Shown piece by piece: positions 8,392-23,025 of a stretch of DNA of 26,961 nucleotides. A program made the position numbers and the translations under genes. This stretch comes from Elusimicrobiota bacterium (GTDB taxonomy: Bacteria; CG03; SLGR01; PWQF01), in assembly GCA_003557485.1 (NCBI GenBank), contig PWOI01000190.1, positions 1 through 26,961 on the forward strand. Direction: 5' to 3'. The notes under the pieces were generated by a model that saw nothing but the letters and a program-made list of their open reading frames with translations, had not been told where the DNA came from and did not search any database. Each line of letters starts with the position of its first letter. Positions within the stretch are counted from its first letter, which is position 1.

Positions 8392-9945
8392 TCACTTCCC
8401 GTCCTCAGTTTTACGTACACGAGTTTGGACTTTTTCAATTATAAGGTTCGCCAGGTTTTCGGCTATGAGAATGTTTCTCTTTTCGGTAAAGTGCCCGTAA
8501 TCTCCTGCAAATGAATCGCGAAAATACTCCGAGTATTCCCCGGTTTTTAAGGTTTCACTGAAAAGATTCTCAATATCCACAAGTATAACCTCCGCCGAAA
8601 TATACTCATACCACTCTTTCAGCGCGTTTATTTCACTCAGCGGATACTGCATACAAACATAAGTTATGTCTTTTTCATTAAGCATCAGGTAGAGCCTTAT
8701 ATGGTTGAGTATGCTTACAGGAAGCGCGTCGGGCCTTATTGCTGCCTTTTTCCGCAGATGCTCTTCAGAGGCTGCATACTCTCCCATAAGTGCGTAAACC
8801 CCGCTCAACACCTTATGCGCTTCAAAATTCCCGGGTTCAAGGCTCAGCGCCTGCTTCAGAAGCTCTTCGGCCTCGTCCAGCCTGCCCATATCCCGGTACA
8901 AACGCCCCTGTTCAAGATACAGCCTGTAATAATACTGATTGAGCGAGAGCAATTCTCTAAACAATTCTTCAGATTCCTCAAAGCGCCCCTGCTTCCGGTA
9001 AAGCACAGCCAGCTCTGCCTCCGCCCAGTCATACCCCGGCCTCATACAGGTCATCTGTGCGGCTTTTTTAAGCTCCGCTTCAGCCTCCTCCATCCGGCCC
9101 TGCTCGCGGCAGCTAATACCTTTCCGGATCTGTCGTCTGTAACCCTCCATACAGAATCCCGGAGATTCCGGAACTTGGGACTCAATTAAGTCAAGTTTTT
9201 CCATCTCAGCATGAGCAGGAGAGTATTCAGGGTTTATCTTTGTTGCTTTTTCAAGCATTTTTTCTGCCTTATCGTATCTGCCCATATCAAGGTACAGGCC
9301 CCCCAATTCCACTAGCGCCTTATAGTTCTCAGGATTTGCAACTATCGCATTTTTTATTACTTTTTCTCTCCTCTGCAAAATGGCTTGTGCCGGATCCTGA
9401 GGCATTTTGTTCTTATAAAATTTATATCTGAGATTTTTCCCGGGGCGCCGGAAATCCGCTGCCCTTTTCAGAACCAAAACAGCCTTTTCTTTCATAAGAC
9501 CAACAAACCTGGCGATAAGATTATGCGTTCTGCGCCCCAGAACAGTTCCTGCCTTTTTGAAAAACGATTCCGGGCTTTTCTCATAATTATGAAACCCCAT
9601 CATTGAAATAACCATATCCGGGTTATACTTTCTGAGGAAGCGGGGGGTTCTCCCAAGTATATAAGAACTCTTCGCGCCCTCAAGGCCTTTGTCTATGACC
9701 TTGAATTCTATCCCGGCGCCGCGCTCATCCAGAATTTCCTGAAGAAACACCGGGTATCCTCCGGCAGTAATGGTATCTCCCAGGCAAAGTATCCGGTAAA
9801 TATCAGAAGGAGAATCAGTATCCCGACAGATGGGCAGAGGGCCGAGCCCGGCATAAAAAGCGGTGAAGACAAGTAGAGCCCAAACTGCCAGAAAAAATAA
9901 CTTAAGAACAGATTGAGTACCATCTTTGCGATCAGAGTTTACCAT
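8392..9945 (-). CDS. Membrane-anchored SGNH-like protein with TPR repeats; nucleophile replaced by Thr
   Basis: The protein has 517 residues. A hydrophobic N-terminal anchor (about 13-37) places the rest outside the membrane. The SGNH core is recognisable by alignment with its paralogs but carries key changes: block I reads G-D-T (56-58) where the paralogs have G-E-S, and block III reads G-F-H-N (117-120) instead of G-I-N-D. The C-terminal D-x-x-H block is kept (Asp482, His485, in the D-S-F-A-G-D segment). Between them, residues about 190-410 form several TPR units with the usual G-x-Y and A-x-x-L positions. A Thr nucleophile is rare in this family, so the protein may be a binding or scaffold version, or a weak enzyme. 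The DNA at the Thr codon (ACC) is clear. It is the first gene of a minus-strand run with the YfhO-like gene downstream. Confidence 0.82.
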   Translation of the reverse strand: MVNSDRKDGTQSVLKLFFLAVWALLVFTAFYAGLGPLPICRDTDSPSDIYRILCLGDTITAGGYPVFLQEILDERGAGIEFKVIDKGLEGAKSSYILGRTPRFLRKYNPDMVISMMGFHNYEKSPESFFKKAGTVLGRRTHNLIARFVGLMKEKAVLVLKRAADFRRPGKNLRYKFYKNKMPQDPAQAILQRREKVIKNAIVANPENYKALVELGGLYLDMGRYDKAEKMLEKATKINPEYSPAHAEMEKLDLIESQVPESPGFCMEGYRRQIRKGISCREQGRMEEAEAELKKAAQMTCMRPGYDWAEAELAVLYRKQGRFEESEELFRELLSLNQYYYRLYLEQGRLYRDMGRLDEAEELLKQALSLEPGNFEAHKVLSGVYALMGEYAASEEHLRKKAAIRPDALPVSILNHIRLYLMLNEKDITYVCMQYPLSEINALKEWYEYISAEVILVDIENLFSETLKTGEYSEYFRDSFAGDYGHFTEKRNILIAENLANLIIEKVQTRVRKTEDGK

Positions 9946-16853: not shown

Positions 16854-18329
16854 ATGAAAGAACGAAAAGAAAATCAAACCCGAAAAAAAATCTTACTGGT
16901 TCTGTTTGGATTTTTTTTAAGTCTGGCGGTCCTGGAGTTGGGCCTGAGGGCAGGCGGCTTTCTTTTTTTATCTATTCAGCATTACAGGAACAGAGCAGCT
17001 ATTCGCAGGGTAGATGCCTATCGCATATTATGTATTGGTGAGTCAACTACTGCAAAACAGTATCCGCCCCATCTTCAAAATATACTGGATAATTTTGATG
17101 AGTTAGATATTGAATTCAGTGTAATTGATAAGGGACGGGTCGGCACTAATACTTCCATAATTTTATCAAAGATTGAAACAGATATTAAAACATATAGTCC
17201 GGATATGGTTATCACAATGATGGGCATTAATGATTACGGCGCGCATATGCCAACTTCCGACATAAAACCAGCAGAAGAGCAGCCCCTTATAAAGAGTTTG
17301 AGGATTTACAACCTGTGGCGACTCCTGCTTTTACATATTAGCAGCATTCGCGAGAGATCTGATACTGAAAAAGCCCCGCTCCGCCAATACGTCGGTAGTG
17401 ATATCTCAGAAATAGGTGTTCCTGCCGCTGAACAAGATATTTTACTGAAAGCCCTTGAGGAAGATCCCGAAAACACGGAAGCATTGCTGGGTTTAGCCCT
17501 GTTGTATCGGAATGTCAAGGGTAAATTTAATGATGCTGAGAAGCTTTTACGCAGGGCTATAACGGCTGAACCGGATAATGACACTTTTTACTATGAACTC
17601 GGCCTGGTATATGAAAAGAAAGAAAACTACGATGCCAGTGAATACTATTTCAAAAAGACAATAGAACTTAACCCTGAACATTATTATGCGCATAACACTT
17701 TAGGGGCGTATTATAGCGATACGGGAAAAATATCAGAAGCAGAAGAACTTTTACAAAAAGCTGTTTCTCTTAACCCTTATCCTATAAGGGCTCATTTTTT
17801 ACTTGGCGAGATGTTTTTCAGGGAGGGAAGACTGGAAGAATCTGAAAAAGAATTTCTGGAAATTTTAGAGATGGTTCCGAAACATTACGAGGCCATAGGA
17901 AATTTAGCAAGAATATACCAGCAGAAGGGTGATGAGGAATCGGCTGCCTTCTACAGAAAGAAAAAGCAGGGCTTAAAAAAACATTACGTACATTCAATGA
18001 CTGTTTCCAATTATAGGAGTCTCCATAAAATTTTAAACAAAAAAGGAATAACTCATATGTGTGTCCAGTATCCTATGCGTGCTGTAGAACCCTTAAAAAA
18101 TATATTCAGAGATTCTGAATATGGAGCGGATATAATATTTGTAGATAATGAAAAAGTCTTCCAGGAAGCCGTCGCAGAAGGAAATTACTGGGATTATTTT
18201 ATTGATTCGTTTGCCGGTGATTTCGGCCACTGTACGGAAAAAGGGAATAAACTCCTGGCTGAGAATATCGCAAAAGCAATACTGGGAGAGGCTTTCGGGG
18301 TTGATATGAAAGCGCGGGAAAAATTATGA
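16854..18329 (+). CDS. Membrane-anchored SGNH/GDSL hydrolase with TPR repeats (intact copy)
   Basis: The protein has 491 residues. The basic N-terminus and hydrophobic segment (about 12-40) form a signal anchor. The SGNH core has all expected blocks: G-E-S at 62-64 (Ser64 nucleophile), the V-I-D-K-G block with its glycine near 93, G-I-N-D at 124-127 (Asn126), and D-x-x-H at Asp456/His459 within D-S-F-A-G-D. An insertion of several TPR units (about 190-370) separates block III from block V, so the catalytic site is completed only after the repeats, which may control access or bind a partner. By family it should hydrolyse or transfer an ester, for example an O-acetyl group on an envelope glycan; that is inference. 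It is the closest relative in this window of the truncated gene at 86-841. The ATG lacks a clear ribosome-binding site. Confidence 0.88.
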   Translation: MKERKENQTRKKILLVLFGFFLSLAVLELGLRAGGFLFLSIQHYRNRAAIRRVDAYRILCIGESTTAKQYPPHLQNILDNFDELDIEFSVIDKGRVGTNTSIILSKIETDIKTYSPDMVITMMGINDYGAHMPTSDIKPAEEQPLIKSLRIYNLWRLLLLHISSIRERSDTEKAPLRQYVGSDISEIGVPAAEQDILLKALEEDPENTEALLGLALLYRNVKGKFNDAEKLLRRAITAEPDNDTFYYELGLVYEKKENYDASEYYFKKTIELNPEHYYAHNTLGAYYSDTGKISEAEELLQKAVSLNPYPIRAHFLLGEMFFREGRLEESEKEFLEILEMVPKHYEAIGNLARIYQQKGDEESAAFYRKKKQGLKKHYVHSMTVSNYRSLHKILNKKGITHMCVQYPMRAVEPLKNIFRDSEYGADIIFVDNEKVFQEAVAEGNYWDYFIDSFAGDFGHCTEKGNKLLAENIAKAILGEAFGVDMKAREKL

Positions 18330-18354: not shown

Positions 18355-19983
18355 TTATTTTTCCACTATAAAATCACCTATAACAAGAGAGTCCAGTCCG
18401 CTTCCGTAGAATACAGATAAAGCATCCCGTGGAGAGTTGACTATGGGTTCGCGGCTGCGGTTGAAACTTGTATTTACACATACCCCGTATCCGGTATTCT
18501 CTTTCAATATACACAGCAGCCTGTGAAAAAGCGGGTTCTCATCCCGGCTTACCGTCTGTATCCTGGCCGTGGAATCAATATGCGTTACAGCCGGTATCTT
18601 TCTGCTGATGACATCGTAATTGATAGTCATAAAGGGGGATGATTTCTTTTTGCCTCTAAAAAATTCATCAAAATCCTCCTCCAGAACAGCTGGACAGAAA
18701 GGGCGGAACCCCTCCCTGAATTTTATCTTGCTGTTTATGAGCTCTTTCATCTCCGGGGCCAGGGCGTTTCCCAGGATACTCCGGCTCCCCAGGGCCCTGG
18801 GGCCGTACTCACTTCTTCCCTGAAACCACCCGATAACCTTATTATCCGCTATCATAGAAGCAGCCTCTTCGGATGTATCAGAGCTCTCCCTGTACCTTAC
18901 CCCGCAACCCTGGAGAACCTGTTCTATTTCCCGATTATCATAGGACGATCCCAGGCAGGCAGTACTCATTATCTCCGGTTTAAAACCTTCTTCCGCAGAC
19001 ATAAGATAAGCCGCGCCGAGAGAGAGCCCCGAATCCCCTGCGGCCGGCTGCACAAAAAGCTTTTCCGCCCAGTCCTGCTTAAGTATCATACGGTTAGCCG
19101 CGCAGTTCAGGGCCACCCCGCCGGCCATACATATGCTGCTCAGACCGGTCTTGCGGCAGTACCTCTCAAGAAGGGCCAGAAGGGCTTTTTCAAGAGTTTC
19201 CTGCGCTGCCGCCGCCGTATCCTTATAAAGCCCTGTTAAAGGAGCCCCCGGCATCCGGGGCGCGCCAAGCAAATCAATAAGCGAACGGGTATAAACCGCC
19301 TGCTGCCTGGAAGGCTGCCCCTGACCGGGTTCTGCCTGTTTAAAATATTTTTTATTTACAGTGTACCTTCCTCCGGAGACCTTTACTATATCGGAAGTAT
19401 CAACCCTGCCGGGCGTGCCGTAAGGGGCCAGCCCCATAAGTTTGTACTCATCTGTATCTCTAGTAAACCCGCAGAACTGGGTCATCATGGAGTAGAAAAT
19501 CCCAAGGCTGTTTCCCCGGGGTTCCTTATCCAGGAGCTTAAGCTTGCCGTTTTCACCCGTATATGCGTGAAGCGAGTCTCCGTCCCCGGAAGCATCCGTA
19601 GTAAGAACCAGGGCCTCGTCATATCCTGAAGCAAAGTATGCGCTTGCCGCGTGACAGAGATGATGGTGATACCTCTTTACCGGGGGAGAGAATCCGAACC
19701 TGCATGAGAGGTAATCTTTCAGCACATTCTCATACTCATCTCCCCAGGTGCTTCCATGAGAGGCAACTCCGCTGATATCTCTTAAGGTAATCCCCTCAAG
19801 ATCCAGGACCTCCCTGACCGAGAGTTCCGGGAGTTGTCCCGGTGAATGCTTTATGCGGTTGAGCCTCTCCTCCTCAACAGCCGCCGCAATGCGCCCGTTC
19901 TTTAAAAGCGCGGCGGAAACATCCTGGTAGCCGAGGCGCACCCCGCCGTTTATCCCCAGTATGTAGCAGTCCCTATTTGCCAT
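18355..19983 (-). CDS. NodU/TobZ-type carbamoyltransferase
   Basis: The protein has 542 residues, close to the usual family length. The N-terminal domain has the family opening (I-L-G-I-N-G-G), A-A-V-E-E-E-R-L-N-R-I-K-H (35-46), the metal and carbamoyl-adenylate site H-H-H-L-C-H-A-A-S (106-114), and T-T-D-A-S-G-D-G (128-135). The C-terminal half carries W-F-Q-G-R-S-E-Y-G-P-R-A-L-G, the ATP-side signature. These enzymes use carbamoyl phosphate and ATP to place a carbamoyl group on a sugar hydroxyl. It is the last gene of the 18355-23025 operon and overlaps the PP-loop amidotransferase by 11 bp, so its acceptor is probably the same nucleotide sugar or its glycan. The next gene is convergent, 25 bp away. 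Confidence 0.92.
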   Translation of the reverse strand: MANRDCYILGINGGVRLGYQDVSAALLKNGRIAAAVEEERLNRIKHSPGQLPELSVREVLDLEGITLRDISGVASHGSTWGDEYENVLKDYLSCRFGFSPPVKRYHHHLCHAASAYFASGYDEALVLTTDASGDGDSLHAYTGENGKLKLLDKEPRGNSLGIFYSMMTQFCGFTRDTDEYKLMGLAPYGTPGRVDTSDIVKVSGGRYTVNKKYFKQAEPGQGQPSRQQAVYTRSLIDLLGAPRMPGAPLTGLYKDTAAAAQETLEKALLALLERYCRKTGLSSICMAGGVALNCAANRMILKQDWAEKLFVQPAAGDSGLSLGAAYLMSAEEGFKPEIMSTACLGSSYDNREIEQVLQGCGVRYRESSDTSEEAASMIADNKVIGWFQGRSEYGPRALGSRSILGNALAPEMKELINSKIKFREGFRPFCPAVLEEDFDEFFRGKKKSSPFMTINYDVISRKIPAVTHIDSTARIQTVSRDENPLFHRLLCILKENTGYGVCVNTSFNRSREPIVNSPRDALSVFYGSGLDSLVIGDFIVEK

Positions 19984-21163
19984 GCTTAAAGTACTTTTCG
20001 TATGTTATTTTTGGCAGGAGGTTTGCCCTTGAGGCCATCCATATCGGAATCCGGAGAAGTTTTATATATCCGTATCCCGTTGGATAATCCCTGAAGGTTC
20101 TGGGAGGAAGGTTAAGGTAACTTTCAAATTCGTTCCGGGAAATCCCGAGCCTTTTTATGCAGAGGTCTATTATCCTTTCATCCTCAATATGGTACGCCCC
20201 GGAGGCCCTCTCGAGAGCCTTCTCCCTGGAAAGCTGCCCGGAGCGGACTAGAGCCGAATCACTGTTCATATTAAGGTCTATATTGAACTTTACCCGGTGA
20301 ACATAATGGATAAGGCTGTGATAAAGATCATCAAAATAATGAGCCCCGGGGTAAACCCATCCCAGTTCGTTTTTCAGTATTTCCTCAGCATCTTTCCTTA
20401 CATAATCCACATAATATAAAGGGGTCAGGGTCCTGATTTTTTTCAAAACAGTGTAGTAAGTCAGTTCTTTTTTACCCAGATTAAACCCAGGGTCCCCGGG
20501 TTTCCAGGGACGCAGCGGAACCATTCCAAGTTTTTTCTGCACATTGCGCAGGTAGTCGCCGTCAAAAAAAGACCAGGACAGGGGTTTTATTCCCTCTGTC
20601 CGGAAGGACTGCCCTATAAGGATATACTTTATGCCTTCCTGAAAAGCAGCCTCGTACAGAGAAGAAGCTATCCCTATATCCGTCCCAAGGTTCAGATCCG
20701 GGACAGAGGCCTTCAGGAATGTGATTTTAAGGTCTTTGGCCTCTCTCCAGTCGGAAGTAATCGTTCGAAGCTCAACCCCGAGCGCCTCCGCAGCCCGGCT
20801 CATATTCTCACCTCCCACAGGGTTGTCAAACCCGTCGTTAAAATGAACGGCAAGCGGCCGGAGGCCCCATTCCTTTACACACTTCCAAAGCAGATAGGTG
20901 CTGTCCCGGCCGCCGCTAACCCCAACCACACAGTCATACCCGGATTTCCCGGGAGTAGAGCGTATTTTTTCAAAGAAGGATTCAAGGATATCCTGCCCCT
21001 TCTTTCCGGAAGGGTAGATCTCAAGGAGCCTCTCATGCATGCGGCAGAAATTACATACCCCCTCAGCGTCAAAGTTTATACCCGGCACGGAGCTGTCCTG
21101 GATACAGCGGACGCATCTTCTGTGCTCTATATCAAGCTCTACACCGTTTACTATAACGCTCAT
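19973..21163 (-). CDS. PP-loop N-acetyl sugar amidotransferase (WbpG/PseA-like)
   Basis: The protein has 396 residues. An N-terminal four-cysteine zinc-type site (C17-x2-C20 and C37-x2-C40) precedes the ATP-pyrophosphatase PP-loop S-G-G-R-D-S (83-88), then H-F-N-D-G-F-D-N and a helical C-terminal half. This architecture is that of the N-acetyl sugar amidotransferases, which activate a sugar acetamido group with ATP and replace its oxygen with ammonia to give an acetamidino group, as in some O-antigens and flagellar nonulosonic acids. WbpG is known to work with a HisH-type glutaminase; none is present here. Instead the gene overlaps a nitrilase-superfamily amidohydrolase by 4 bp (ATGA). Its 3' end overlaps the carbamoyltransferase by 11 bp. 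Confidence 0.9.
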   Translation of the reverse strand: MSVIVNGVELDIEHRRCVRCIQDSSVPGINFDAEGVCNFCRMHERLLEIYPSGKKGQDILESFFEKIRSTPGKSGYDCVVGVSGGRDSTYLLWKCVKEWGLRPLAVHFNDGFDNPVGGENMSRAAEALGVELRTITSDWREAKDLKITFLKASVPDLNLGTDIGIASSLYEAAFQEGIKYILIGQSFRTEGIKPLSWSFFDGDYLRNVQKKLGMVPLRPWKPGDPGFNLGKKELTYYTVLKKIRTLTPLYYVDYVRKDAEEILKNELGWVYPGAHYFDDLYHSLIHYVHRVKFNIDLNMNSDSALVRSGQLSREKALERASGAYHIEDERIIDLCIKRLGISRNEFESYLNLPPRTFRDYPTGYGYIKLLRIPIWMASRANLLPKITYEKYFKHGK

Positions 21164-22008
21164 TTTATAACCGCTTCAAAATCGTATCCCTTTTTACGAA
21201 CTTTCTCTCCGATCTGCACACCTTTCTCCCGTCCGGAAACAGGGGAGGCTTCAAAAGTTATGAGTTCCCCGGCGAGCTCATTCACACTTCCTTTTGTGAT
21301 GATCCCTTCCGGAGATACCGCAAGGGACCCCCCCACCATTTTTTTCCCCTCGTAAGGCCCCCCTACTATGTACCCCACGGCAGTAGCGCTTATCAGGGTT
21401 ACATCGTATAGCCGCGCCACATGCTTAAGAGGCCGCTCCCATTTCTGGCTGTAAGGTTCGCGGCTCTCCGCTACAGAGTAATCAACCGTCCAGCTGGCCG
21501 GGGATAATATAAAGTCGGCACCCATTGATGCCAGGGTTTTAGCAATATGAAGGGATTCTATGTAATTATCTGAACATATGTTCAGTCCTATCTTTCCCAG
21601 GGCGGTATCAACAACCGATATCGAACCCCCCACCGTATAATAAGGAAATTCAACTTCCAGGAGGTTGATCTTACTGTACTTTAAGAGTATATTTCCGGAG
21701 CTGTCTATGAGAATAGCGCTGTTATAATTCCTGTCTTCTCTTCTTTCAGTAAGACCTACCGCCAGGAAAATCCCGTACCTGGCAGCAGCTTCACAGAAAA
21801 AGTCACTGTAACTCCCCGGAACGGGCCTGGCTTCATCAATGGAAGAAGGGTGTGTCCACCCGAAATCAATAGTTTCGGGAAGCACCGCCAGTCCGCATCC
21901 TTCCCGGGAAGCCCCGGCTACAAGTTTTTCGGCGCGCTCAAAATTTCTCTCCGGCTCCCCTCCTTCTACCAGAAGCTGAACCATAGCCGCTTTTACAGGT
22001 TTATCCAT
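21160..22008 (-). CDS. Nitrilase-superfamily carbon-nitrogen hydrolase
   Basis: The protein has 282 residues and a single CN-hydrolase domain. The catalytic triad is visible: Glu45 in V-L-P-E-T, Lys113 in Y-S-K-I-N, and the nucleophile Cys145 in G-L-N-I-C-S-D. The family hydrolyses amides or transfers the ammonia; members include amidases, omega-amidase, carbamoylputrescine hydrolase and the glutaminase domain of NAD synthetase. The protein sequence alone does not pick a substrate. Context does suggest one: it is translationally coupled (ATGA) to a PP-loop amidotransferase that needs ammonia and has no HisH partner in view, so it may be its glutaminase. It starts 24 bp after the oxidoreductase, with an AAGG nine bases before the ATG. 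Confidence 0.9.
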   Translation of the reverse strand: MDKPVKAAMVQLLVEGGEPERNFERAEKLVAGASREGCGLAVLPETIDFGWTHPSSIDEARPVPGSYSDFFCEAAARYGIFLAVGLTERREDRNYNSAILIDSSGNILLKYSKINLLEVEFPYYTVGGSISVVDTALGKIGLNICSDNYIESLHIAKTLASMGADFILSPASWTVDYSVAESREPYSQKWERPLKHVARLYDVTLISATAVGYIVGGPYEGKKMVGGSLAVSPEGIITKGSVNELAGELITFEASPVSGREKGVQIGEKVRKKGYDFEAVIK

Positions 22009-22032: not shown

Positions 22033-23025
22033 TTAAAACCTTTCCAGTCTCCCGCCTTTATTCATTGAACGGTCAGCCATCTCAAGTGTTTTTATTATAA
22101 GGATCTCCTCCTCGGGGCTTAATATCCCTTCAGAACGTTTGCTAACAGATGAGATAAAAGTTTCAAGCATAAGGTTCAGCGGCTCCCGAAGTGAAAACTT
22201 GGGGATTTTTATATCTCCAAGCCGGAAATCTATAAGGGCGCTGCGTTTATTATCTTTTTTATGACGGTAATCATATATCTTCAATTTGTCTGTCGGTTCA
22301 ATATCATCATATATAAGCATTTTATTTTCTCCGCCCACTATCATCTGCCTTATTTTGACCGGAGAGGCCCAGGAAGAGTTAACATGGACCATTACCCCAG
22401 AACTGTATGTTATAAACATATGCGCGAGGTCGGCTGTGTTGTAGGTATTATGAACCTTCCCTATGCACCTTAGATTTTCGGGGGTTTCATCAAAAAAGTA
22501 ATTTATTATGGAAAGATCGTGGGAGGCCAGGTCCCAGACAACACTGATATCACTATGGTAGATACCGAGGTTTATCCTTTTGGAATCCAGGTAGATTATA
22601 CTGCCGAAACTCTCATTCTCAAGGATCTGCTTCATTTTCCGGACTGCACCGTTGTAAAGAAAAGTATGATCAACCATTAAAACCAGGTTTTTCTTTTCAG
22701 CGGTGTCAAGGAGAATTTCAGCCTGCTTTGCGCTTACGGTCATAGGCTTCTCAACCAGAACATGCTTTCCTTCTTTCAGGGCTTTTATGGCGTATTCAAA
22801 GTGAGAGTTTACCGGAGTAGCTATTACAACAGCATCGATGGCGGGGTCCTTTATTAAATCTTCCGGATAAACAGTGGTCTTTATTTTTAAATGTTTCTGG
22901 TTTAGCAGGTTAAGTCTTTTTCTATCCTTATCCGCCACCTGCACTTCTTTCACATTAGGCAAAGAAAGTAGATTCCTCAGGAGATTGGGCCCCCAGTAAC
23001 CGTATCCGAACAAAGCTATTTTCAT
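22033..23025 (-). CDS. Gfo/Idh/MocA family sugar oxidoreductase (WbpB/WlbA-like)
   Basis: The protein has 330 residues. The N-terminal Rossmann domain opens with G-Y-G-Y-W-G (7-12) for NAD(P); the family signature V-E-K-P (about 91-94) supplies the lysine near the nicotinamide, and D-L-A-S-H-D carries the active-site Asp and His in the C-terminal substrate domain. The W-D-L-A-S-H-D form and the length fit the branch that oxidises C3 of UDP-N-acetyl-glucosaminuronate (WbpB/WlbA) in diacetamido sugar synthesis, though the exact substrate cannot be read off. It is the first gene of the operon, with CAGGA ten bases before its ATG and a promoter candidate at 23198-23226. As a WbpB-like step upstream of a WbpG-like step it fits an acetamidino-uronate pathway; the aminotransferase, acetyltransferase and epimerase are not in the window. 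Confidence 0.88.
   Translation of the reverse strand: MKIALFGYGYWGPNLLRNLLSLPNVKEVQVADKDRKRLNLLNQKHLKIKTTVYPEDLIKDPAIDAVVIATPVNSHFEYAIKALKEGKHVLVEKPMTVSAKQAEILLDTAEKKNLVLMVDHTFLYNGAVRKMKQILENESFGSIIYLDSKRINLGIYHSDISVVWDLASHDLSIINYFFDETPENLRCIGKVHNTYNTADLAHMFITYSSGVMVHVNSSWASPVKIRQMIVGGENKMLIYDDIEPTDKLKIYDYRHKKDNKRSALIDFRLGDIKIPKFSLREPLNLMLETFISSVSKRSEGILSPEEEILIIKTLEMADRSMNKGGRLERF

Follow-up and report, generated by a model that had tools for sequence, protein, structure and literature searches.

A nitrilase-fold protein in the place of HisH and HisF2: a candidate ammonia-supplying partner for a clade of putative N-acetyl-sugar amidotransferases

In the 26,961-nucleotide contig of an Elusimicrobiota bacterium analyzed here (PWOI01000190.1, hereafter the window; contig C102 of the metagenome-assembled genome [MAG] G000, 2.07 Mb and 86.6% complete), a gene for a nitrilase-superfamily amide hydrolase (NIT) overlaps one for a PP-loop N-acetyl-sugar amidotransferase (AMT). 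We propose that NIT feeds ammonia to AMT, filling the place that the glutaminase HisH and the conduit HisF2 have in most other enzymes of the family. Comparative genomics suggests that this swap of partners is real, conserved, and well supported. It is also apparently undescribed, in that no paper joining a nitrilase or carbon-nitrogen hydrolase with an N-acetyl sugar amidotransferase was found in a literature search conducted largely without subscription journals. The central evidence comes from up to ~20 kb of sequence fetched around other AMTs, in which NIT, HisH, and HisF were scored. A NIT gene lies near six of the seven NIT-type AMTs and near none of 67 others (Fisher, 4e-8), while HisH and/or HisF lies near 48 of those 67 and near none of the seven (Fisher, 4e-4), both values being rough, since loci of related genomes are not independent.

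Conservation of the NIT-AMT gene pair

The genes in question are the following.

21160-22008, minus strand: NIT, a nitrilase-superfamily amide hydrolase of 282 amino acids (PF00795, 122 bits; Glu45-Lys113-Cys145), the proposed ammonia donor
21160-21163, minus strand: ATGA overlap of the NIT stop codon (TGA) and the AMT start codon (ATG)
19973-21163, minus strand: AMT, a PP-loop N-acetyl-sugar amidotransferase of the WbuX/WbpG (NASAT) family, 396 amino acids (TIGR03573, 214.4 bits; best PDB match, 8wex)
18355-19983, minus strand: CARB, a NodU/TobZ-type O-carbamoyltransferase, encoded after AMT in the operon (PF16861 and PF02543)
22033-23025, minus strand: a GFO/IDH/MocA-family sugar dehydrogenase, encoded upstream of NIT (PF01408)

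Read along the minus strand, the dehydrogenase gene is followed after a 24-base gap by NIT, which shares 4 bp with AMT, which in turn overlaps CARB by 11 bp. An earlier, sequence-only reading of this DNA had claimed the ATGA overlap, correctly and at the right bases; the co-directional neighbors, CARB and the dehydrogenase, were absent from it.

A genome scan with AMT yielded four full relatives with 66 to 71% identity (L005 to L008), each with NIT (56 to 62% identical) and CARB (53 to 58%) nearby. L005 belongs to the Flavobacteriales, L006 to the Bacteroidales, and L008 to Acidiluteibacter ferrifornacis; since searching the phylum of genome G063 returned the same genomes as searching that of G064, L007, labeled Verrucomicrobia, falls within the phylum of Acidiluteibacter in the search taxonomy. 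L005, L006 (where a further gene separates AMT from CARB), and L007 all show the order NIT-AMT-CARB; in L008, NIT lies 3.3 kb from AMT on the opposite strand. NIT and AMT overlap by 4 bp in L005 and by 7 bp in L007, and are separated by 5 bp in L006 and by 18 bp in genome G230, where NIT lies upstream of AMT and no CARB is found nearby. Because the two genes abut again in other lineages, their overlap in the window exceeds chance. In total, all seven genomes with an AMT of this clade carry the same NIT subfamily, encoded adjacent to AMT in five, 3.3 kb away in one, and 260 kb away in one; in G061, NIT is truncated by the contig end. CARB lies beside AMT in five of the seven. The sequence-only reading had called for a survey of genomes to see whether the two families are consistently adjacent where HisH is absent, and the answer is thus positive.

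The two genes also go together across genomes. When 395 Bacteroidota genomes were searched with an AMT profile, 43 proved to carry AMT-family genes; of these, only G064 (779 bits) and G230 (617 bits) scored in the range of the clade, the next score being 408. The same two genomes gave the only strong NIT profile matches (531 and 447 bits, respectively), a co-occurrence with a chance probability of ~1.3e-5. The only other Bacteroidota match to the NIT profile was a 153-bit relative with a signal-like N terminus in G222 (L139:8385-9221), a genome without an AMT match. In G044, from another small phylum, AMT (702 bits) and NIT (429 bits) are encoded on one contig, 260 kb apart. Since both genes are retained there at such a distance, linkage by common transfer alone is an insufficient explanation, and this unlinked co-occurrence suggests that something beyond physical linkage keeps the genes together. 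Mobile elements offered no further pairs: scanning IMG/VR viral contigs revealed no AMT relative, and a plasmid search recovered no NIT and eight other AMTs, each <37% identical.

Ammonia-supplying partners of other amidotransferases

In an even draw of Bacteroidota plus a few others, HisH and/or HisF was found near 38 of 41 AMTs, often immediately adjacent. Denser sampling of the order to which G064 belongs gave only 10 of 26, and we therefore withdrew the view that HisH/HisF2 linkage is near universal. Overall, neither HisH/HisF2 nor NIT was found near 19 of the 67 other AMTs; as some AMTs without HisH thus also lack NIT, free ammonia or a remote partner may supply an AMT. AMTs with neither partner in the fetched stretch were seen, in the order of G064, at L176 to L183, L185, L186, and L190. 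The HisF proteins beside AMTs have in nearly all cases lost the catalytic Asp11 of histidine-pathway HisF, and the four that were tested all score as members of the AglZ/HisF2 family. Among plasmid-borne AMTs (Pseudomonadota and Bacteroidota), HisH was annotated within the stretch for five of the six inspected. A separate observation concerns an Agrobacterium plasmid AMT (L163:494-4640), which has no HisH or HisF annotated nearby and a gene for a glutamine-hydrolyzing asparagine synthase two genes upstream. We also noted AMT-family proteins of ~737 amino acids with a long N-terminal extension, each with a second AMT of normal length nearby (L177:10942-13155, L179:11300, and L181:10984).

The arrangement of the WbpG-HisH-HisF2 system is not seen at any of the seven NIT-type AMTs. 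Nor, with the limit that several of the genomes are incomplete MAGs, did searches of the G061, G063, and G064 genomes reveal a HisH above cutoff or any HisF. A HisH-type glutaminase consistently co-occurring with the amidotransferase, which the sequence-only reading had named as one finding that would overturn its proposal, was therefore looked for and not found. G044 and G230 each encode one HisF, scoring above the histidine cutoff. G000 itself has two hisH-hisF pairs (C166:1558-2909, L140; C99:2-1187, L141), in which both HisF proteins are of the histidine type by score (380 and 368 bits; cutoff, 294.55) and catalytic residues, and fall below the cutoff of 310 for the HisF2 model NF038364 (251 and 218 bits). 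One of these pairs shares its contig with hisD-, hisC-, hisB-, and hisA-like genes; the pair on C99 is cut at the contig end and lies near a HisA-like gene and other, unrelated genes. The presence of two pairs may stem from a true duplication or from contamination. In principle, a histidine-pathway HisH could serve AMT too.

The clearest single evidence that NIT and HisH/HisF2 are alternatives comes from G062, which carries both types of AMT, each with its own partner: one is of the NIT type and accompanied by NIT, and the other lies beside a HisH and a HisF2 of its own (L142:6600-9113, contig C30; NF038364, 351 bits; cutoff, 310).

Family assignment of NIT and AMT

NIT scores far above the cutoff of 23.2 bits for the CN_hydrolase family (PF00795), placing it in the nitrilase superfamily. 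Its predicted triad of Glu45 (LPET), Lys113 (YSKI), and Cys145 (NICS), already recognized in the sequence-only reading, is invariant among the aligned relatives. No equivalog could be assigned, since all NCBIfam matches were far below their cutoffs, including those to NAD synthetase (NF010588; 35.7 bits, cutoff 479) and, weakly, to Lnt (25 bits, cutoff 133). N-Carbamoylputrescine amidase (aguB, TIGR03381) was considered as an identity for NIT and dropped (55 bits, cutoff 410). In Mycobacterium tuberculosis NadE, Glu177, which follows the nucleophile, contacts glutamine, and a YRE loop is present (PMC6946656). Both features were sought in NIT: Ser or Ala follows Cys145, and the YRE-loop stretch is missing, unlike in the NadE proteins of G062, G064, and G044, which retain C-E-D and that stretch. 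By these residues, the view that NIT is a borrowed NadE glutaminase, whether by descent or by signature, is not supported, and the lack of both features would argue for independent recruitment. An AF2 model of NIT (pLDDT, 71.5) most closely matched a Pyrococcus horikoshii amidase with glutaramide (Z, 27.3), followed by general amidases, with the glutaminase domain of M. tuberculosis NadE ranking lower (Z, 23.8); general amidases and carbamoyl-amide hydrolases make up the nearest solved structures.

AMT exceeds the cutoff of TIGR03573 (WbuX; 203.2 bits) by a small margin, and no Pfam family of note was found in it. The hallmarks of the NASAT family are SGGxDS and a zinc-binding tetracysteine CxxC...CxxC motif (PMC10607449). 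AMT has both, with SGGRDS at residues 83 to 88 and cysteines at positions 17, 20, 37, and 40, all invariant across the clade, in agreement with what the sequence-only reading had claimed for the hydrolase's partner. The Legionella N-acetyl sugar amidotransferase 8wex is its sole clear PDB relative by sequence and also the top fold match of the AMT model, with the longest alignment (Z, 13.2; 268 residues), closely followed by LarE and the nitrile synthetase ArtA (Z, 12.4); as the model is weak (pLDDT, 54.7), these fold matches serve as backing for the sequence result. From what is known of the family, AMT is predicted to use ATP and ammonia to build an acetamidino group on a sugar.

Descent and genomic setting

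The NIT-linked AMTs form one clade (SH-aLRT, 96), with that of G044 as the next branch (94). No AMT-family gene scored above cutoff in 15 relatives of the window genome from the same genus, order, or phylum, yet a Flavobacteriales MAG encodes an AMT that shares 71% identity with the one in the window; together, these observations point to a likely transfer of AMT between phyla. Within the clade, 26 positions are fixed with residues that are rare in HisH-type AMTs, some of them fixed oppositely in all 38 of the latter (N109/D, Y276/H, and D278/E). Possible reasons for these differences are another substrate, another point of ammonia entry, or nothing more than shared descent.

As for the neighboring genes, a Pfam scan found both carbamoyltransferase domains in CARB. 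The dehydrogenase has UDP-GlcNAc 3-dehydrogenase as its top NCBIfam match, below cutoff (148 bits; cutoff, 450), and its homologue in L005 is present without being adjacent. With 100% identity, a 3.3-kb contig labeled Candidatus Sumerlaeota (L009) covers the end of AMT, the whole of CARB, and the next gene. Elsewhere in the window, three similar-looking proteins (86-841, 8392-9945, and 16854-18329, the third being the one subjected to a Pfam scan) combine an SGNH-hydrolase-like part with TPR repeats and are encoded amid genes for large membrane proteins and radical SAM proteins.

Proposed mechanism and alternatives

We propose that NIT and AMT act as a two-protein, ATP-dependent amidotransferase. 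NIT would use its Cys-Glu-Lys triad to hydrolyze a carboxamide, be it glutamine or some other small amide, freeing ammonia; the PP-loop of AMT would use ATP to adenylate the amide oxygen of a nucleotide-linked N-acyl sugar, to which AMT would then add the NIT-derived ammonia, yielding an amidine; and CARB would probably go on to carbamoylate the same sugar or glycan. The parts of this scheme differ in their footing. Family membership, motifs, conserved pairing, and the lack of a HisH/HisF2 module at NIT-type AMTs can be read from the sequences themselves, while the PP-loop chemistry and the amidine product are what knowledge of the family would predict, and the hand-over of ammonia, the formation of a complex, and the identity of the amide donor are suggested by gene context. 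That NIT is coupled to AMT in some way we regard as highly probable, and its role as the ammonia source as fairly probable. For a sugar amide as the acceptor we see the odds as even, and glutamine as the amide is a tentative assignment, rated low because Ser or Ala replaces the glutamine-contacting Glu of NadE and the YRE stretch is missing. Taken as a whole, a NIT-fed AMT with NIT in the place of HisH/HisF2 seems to us somewhat favored.

Several observations weigh against this proposal. Of the 26 other AMTs sampled in the order of G064, 16 lack both HisH/HisF2 and NIT in their surroundings; the pair in G230 lies outside any recognizable polysaccharide locus; the 26 clade-fixed positions may mean that the substrate of AMT is not the usual N-acetyl sugar; with the two examined glutamine-site features of NadE missing, glutamine use by NIT is not indicated by its residues; and the sample comprises seven genomes, several of them incomplete MAGs.

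It is unlikely, if far from negligible, that NIT serves the same pathway without being the donor, hydrolyzing an amide or a carbamoyl group that the sugar or a precursor carries (e.g., a uronamide or a miscarbamoylated CARB product), with AMT using free ammonia or a remote glutaminase. Such a role would suit the kinship of NIT with general amidases and carbamoyl-amide hydrolases and the presence of CARB in the same operon, as well as the many AMTs of other clades without a linked glutaminase and the NIT genes of L008 and G044, which are not next to AMT. However, G230 keeps NIT with AMT although CARB is not adjacent, no HisH/HisF2 accompanies any NIT-type AMT, and G062 has both modules, each with an AMT of its own.

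We consider two further readings very unlikely, the second slightly more so than the first. The nitrilase superfamily includes acyltransferases such as Lnt, and NIT might accordingly be an acyl- or amidino-transferring homologue that makes the amide substrate of AMT instead of hydrolyzing one, in line with the clade having its own substrate-site residues; yet the triad of NIT is complete, its closest relatives are hydrolytic amidases, and its match to Lnt is weak. Alternatively, AMT might be a PP-loop enzyme of another kind, akin to sulfur transferases or nitrile synthetases, in which case the part of NIT would be on the nitrile or thioamide side of the reaction. While the close fold matches to LarE and ArtA and the narrow margin over the TIGR03573 cutoff would allow for this, 8wex is best in both sequence searches and by fold, AMT fully retains the NASAT PP-loop and four-cysteine motif, and the model behind the fold matches is itself weak.

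Returning to the NIT-fed AMT, we give about equal weight for and against the evolutionary scenario of a nitrilase-fold enzyme becoming, through a recruitment separate from that in NAD synthetase, a dedicated ammonia subunit, displacing HisH/HisF2, perhaps using a nonglutamine amide, and spreading between phyla together with AMT.

Comparison with known systems

By score, PP-loop, tetracysteine motif, and fold, AMT belongs with the WbpG/WbuX/PseA-type amidotransferases that act with HisH and HisF2 (AglZ/HisF2, NF038364), from which it differs in having NIT as its partner and in forming a separate clade with its own fixed positions. Nitrilase-like (class IV) glutaminases have been assigned to NAD synthetase, and in the two-subunit NAD synthetase of Thermus thermophilus (TTC1538/TTC1539) the gene for the nitrilase-fold glutaminase lies in some cases in a cluster with the synthetase gene and in others far from it (PMC3376133), which offers a precedent for the proposal. 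NIT-AMT likewise combines a PP-loop synthetase with a nitrilase-fold protein encoded by a separate gene, clustered in most genomes and remote in one; unlike in Thermus, however, AMT is a homologue of sugar amidotransferases, not of NadE, and NIT lacks the post-Cys Glu and the YRE loop. We thus predict that NIT-AMT works like a two-subunit NAD synthetase without being a member of that system. Of the claim made in the sequence-only reading, that the pair is a two-protein analogue of NAD synthetase redirected to sugar amidination, the architecture and gene arrangement hold up, but by neither signature nor score is NIT a NadE glutaminase. With the fused NadE of M. tuberculosis (PMC6946656), NIT-AMT shares the nitrilase fold (including the structural match noted above), the Glu-Lys-Cys triad, and a PP-loop partner, but NIT and AMT are separate proteins, have a different predicted product, and show no common glutamine-site signature. 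The P. horikoshii amidase PH0642 (6ypa and 1j31) is among the closest structures to NIT (28% identity; Z, 27.3), but stands alone, with no synthetase partner described in these entries.

If the proposal is true, NIT-AMT would join NAD synthetase as a PP-loop enzyme supplied by a nitrilase-fold donor, and ammonia modules would be interchangeable within one synthetase family. G062 would then allow HisH/HisF2-fed and nitrilase-fed enzymes to be compared directly within a single genome, and the nitrilase subfamily of NIT, so far unassigned, would gain a testable role that opens a route to its amide substrate.

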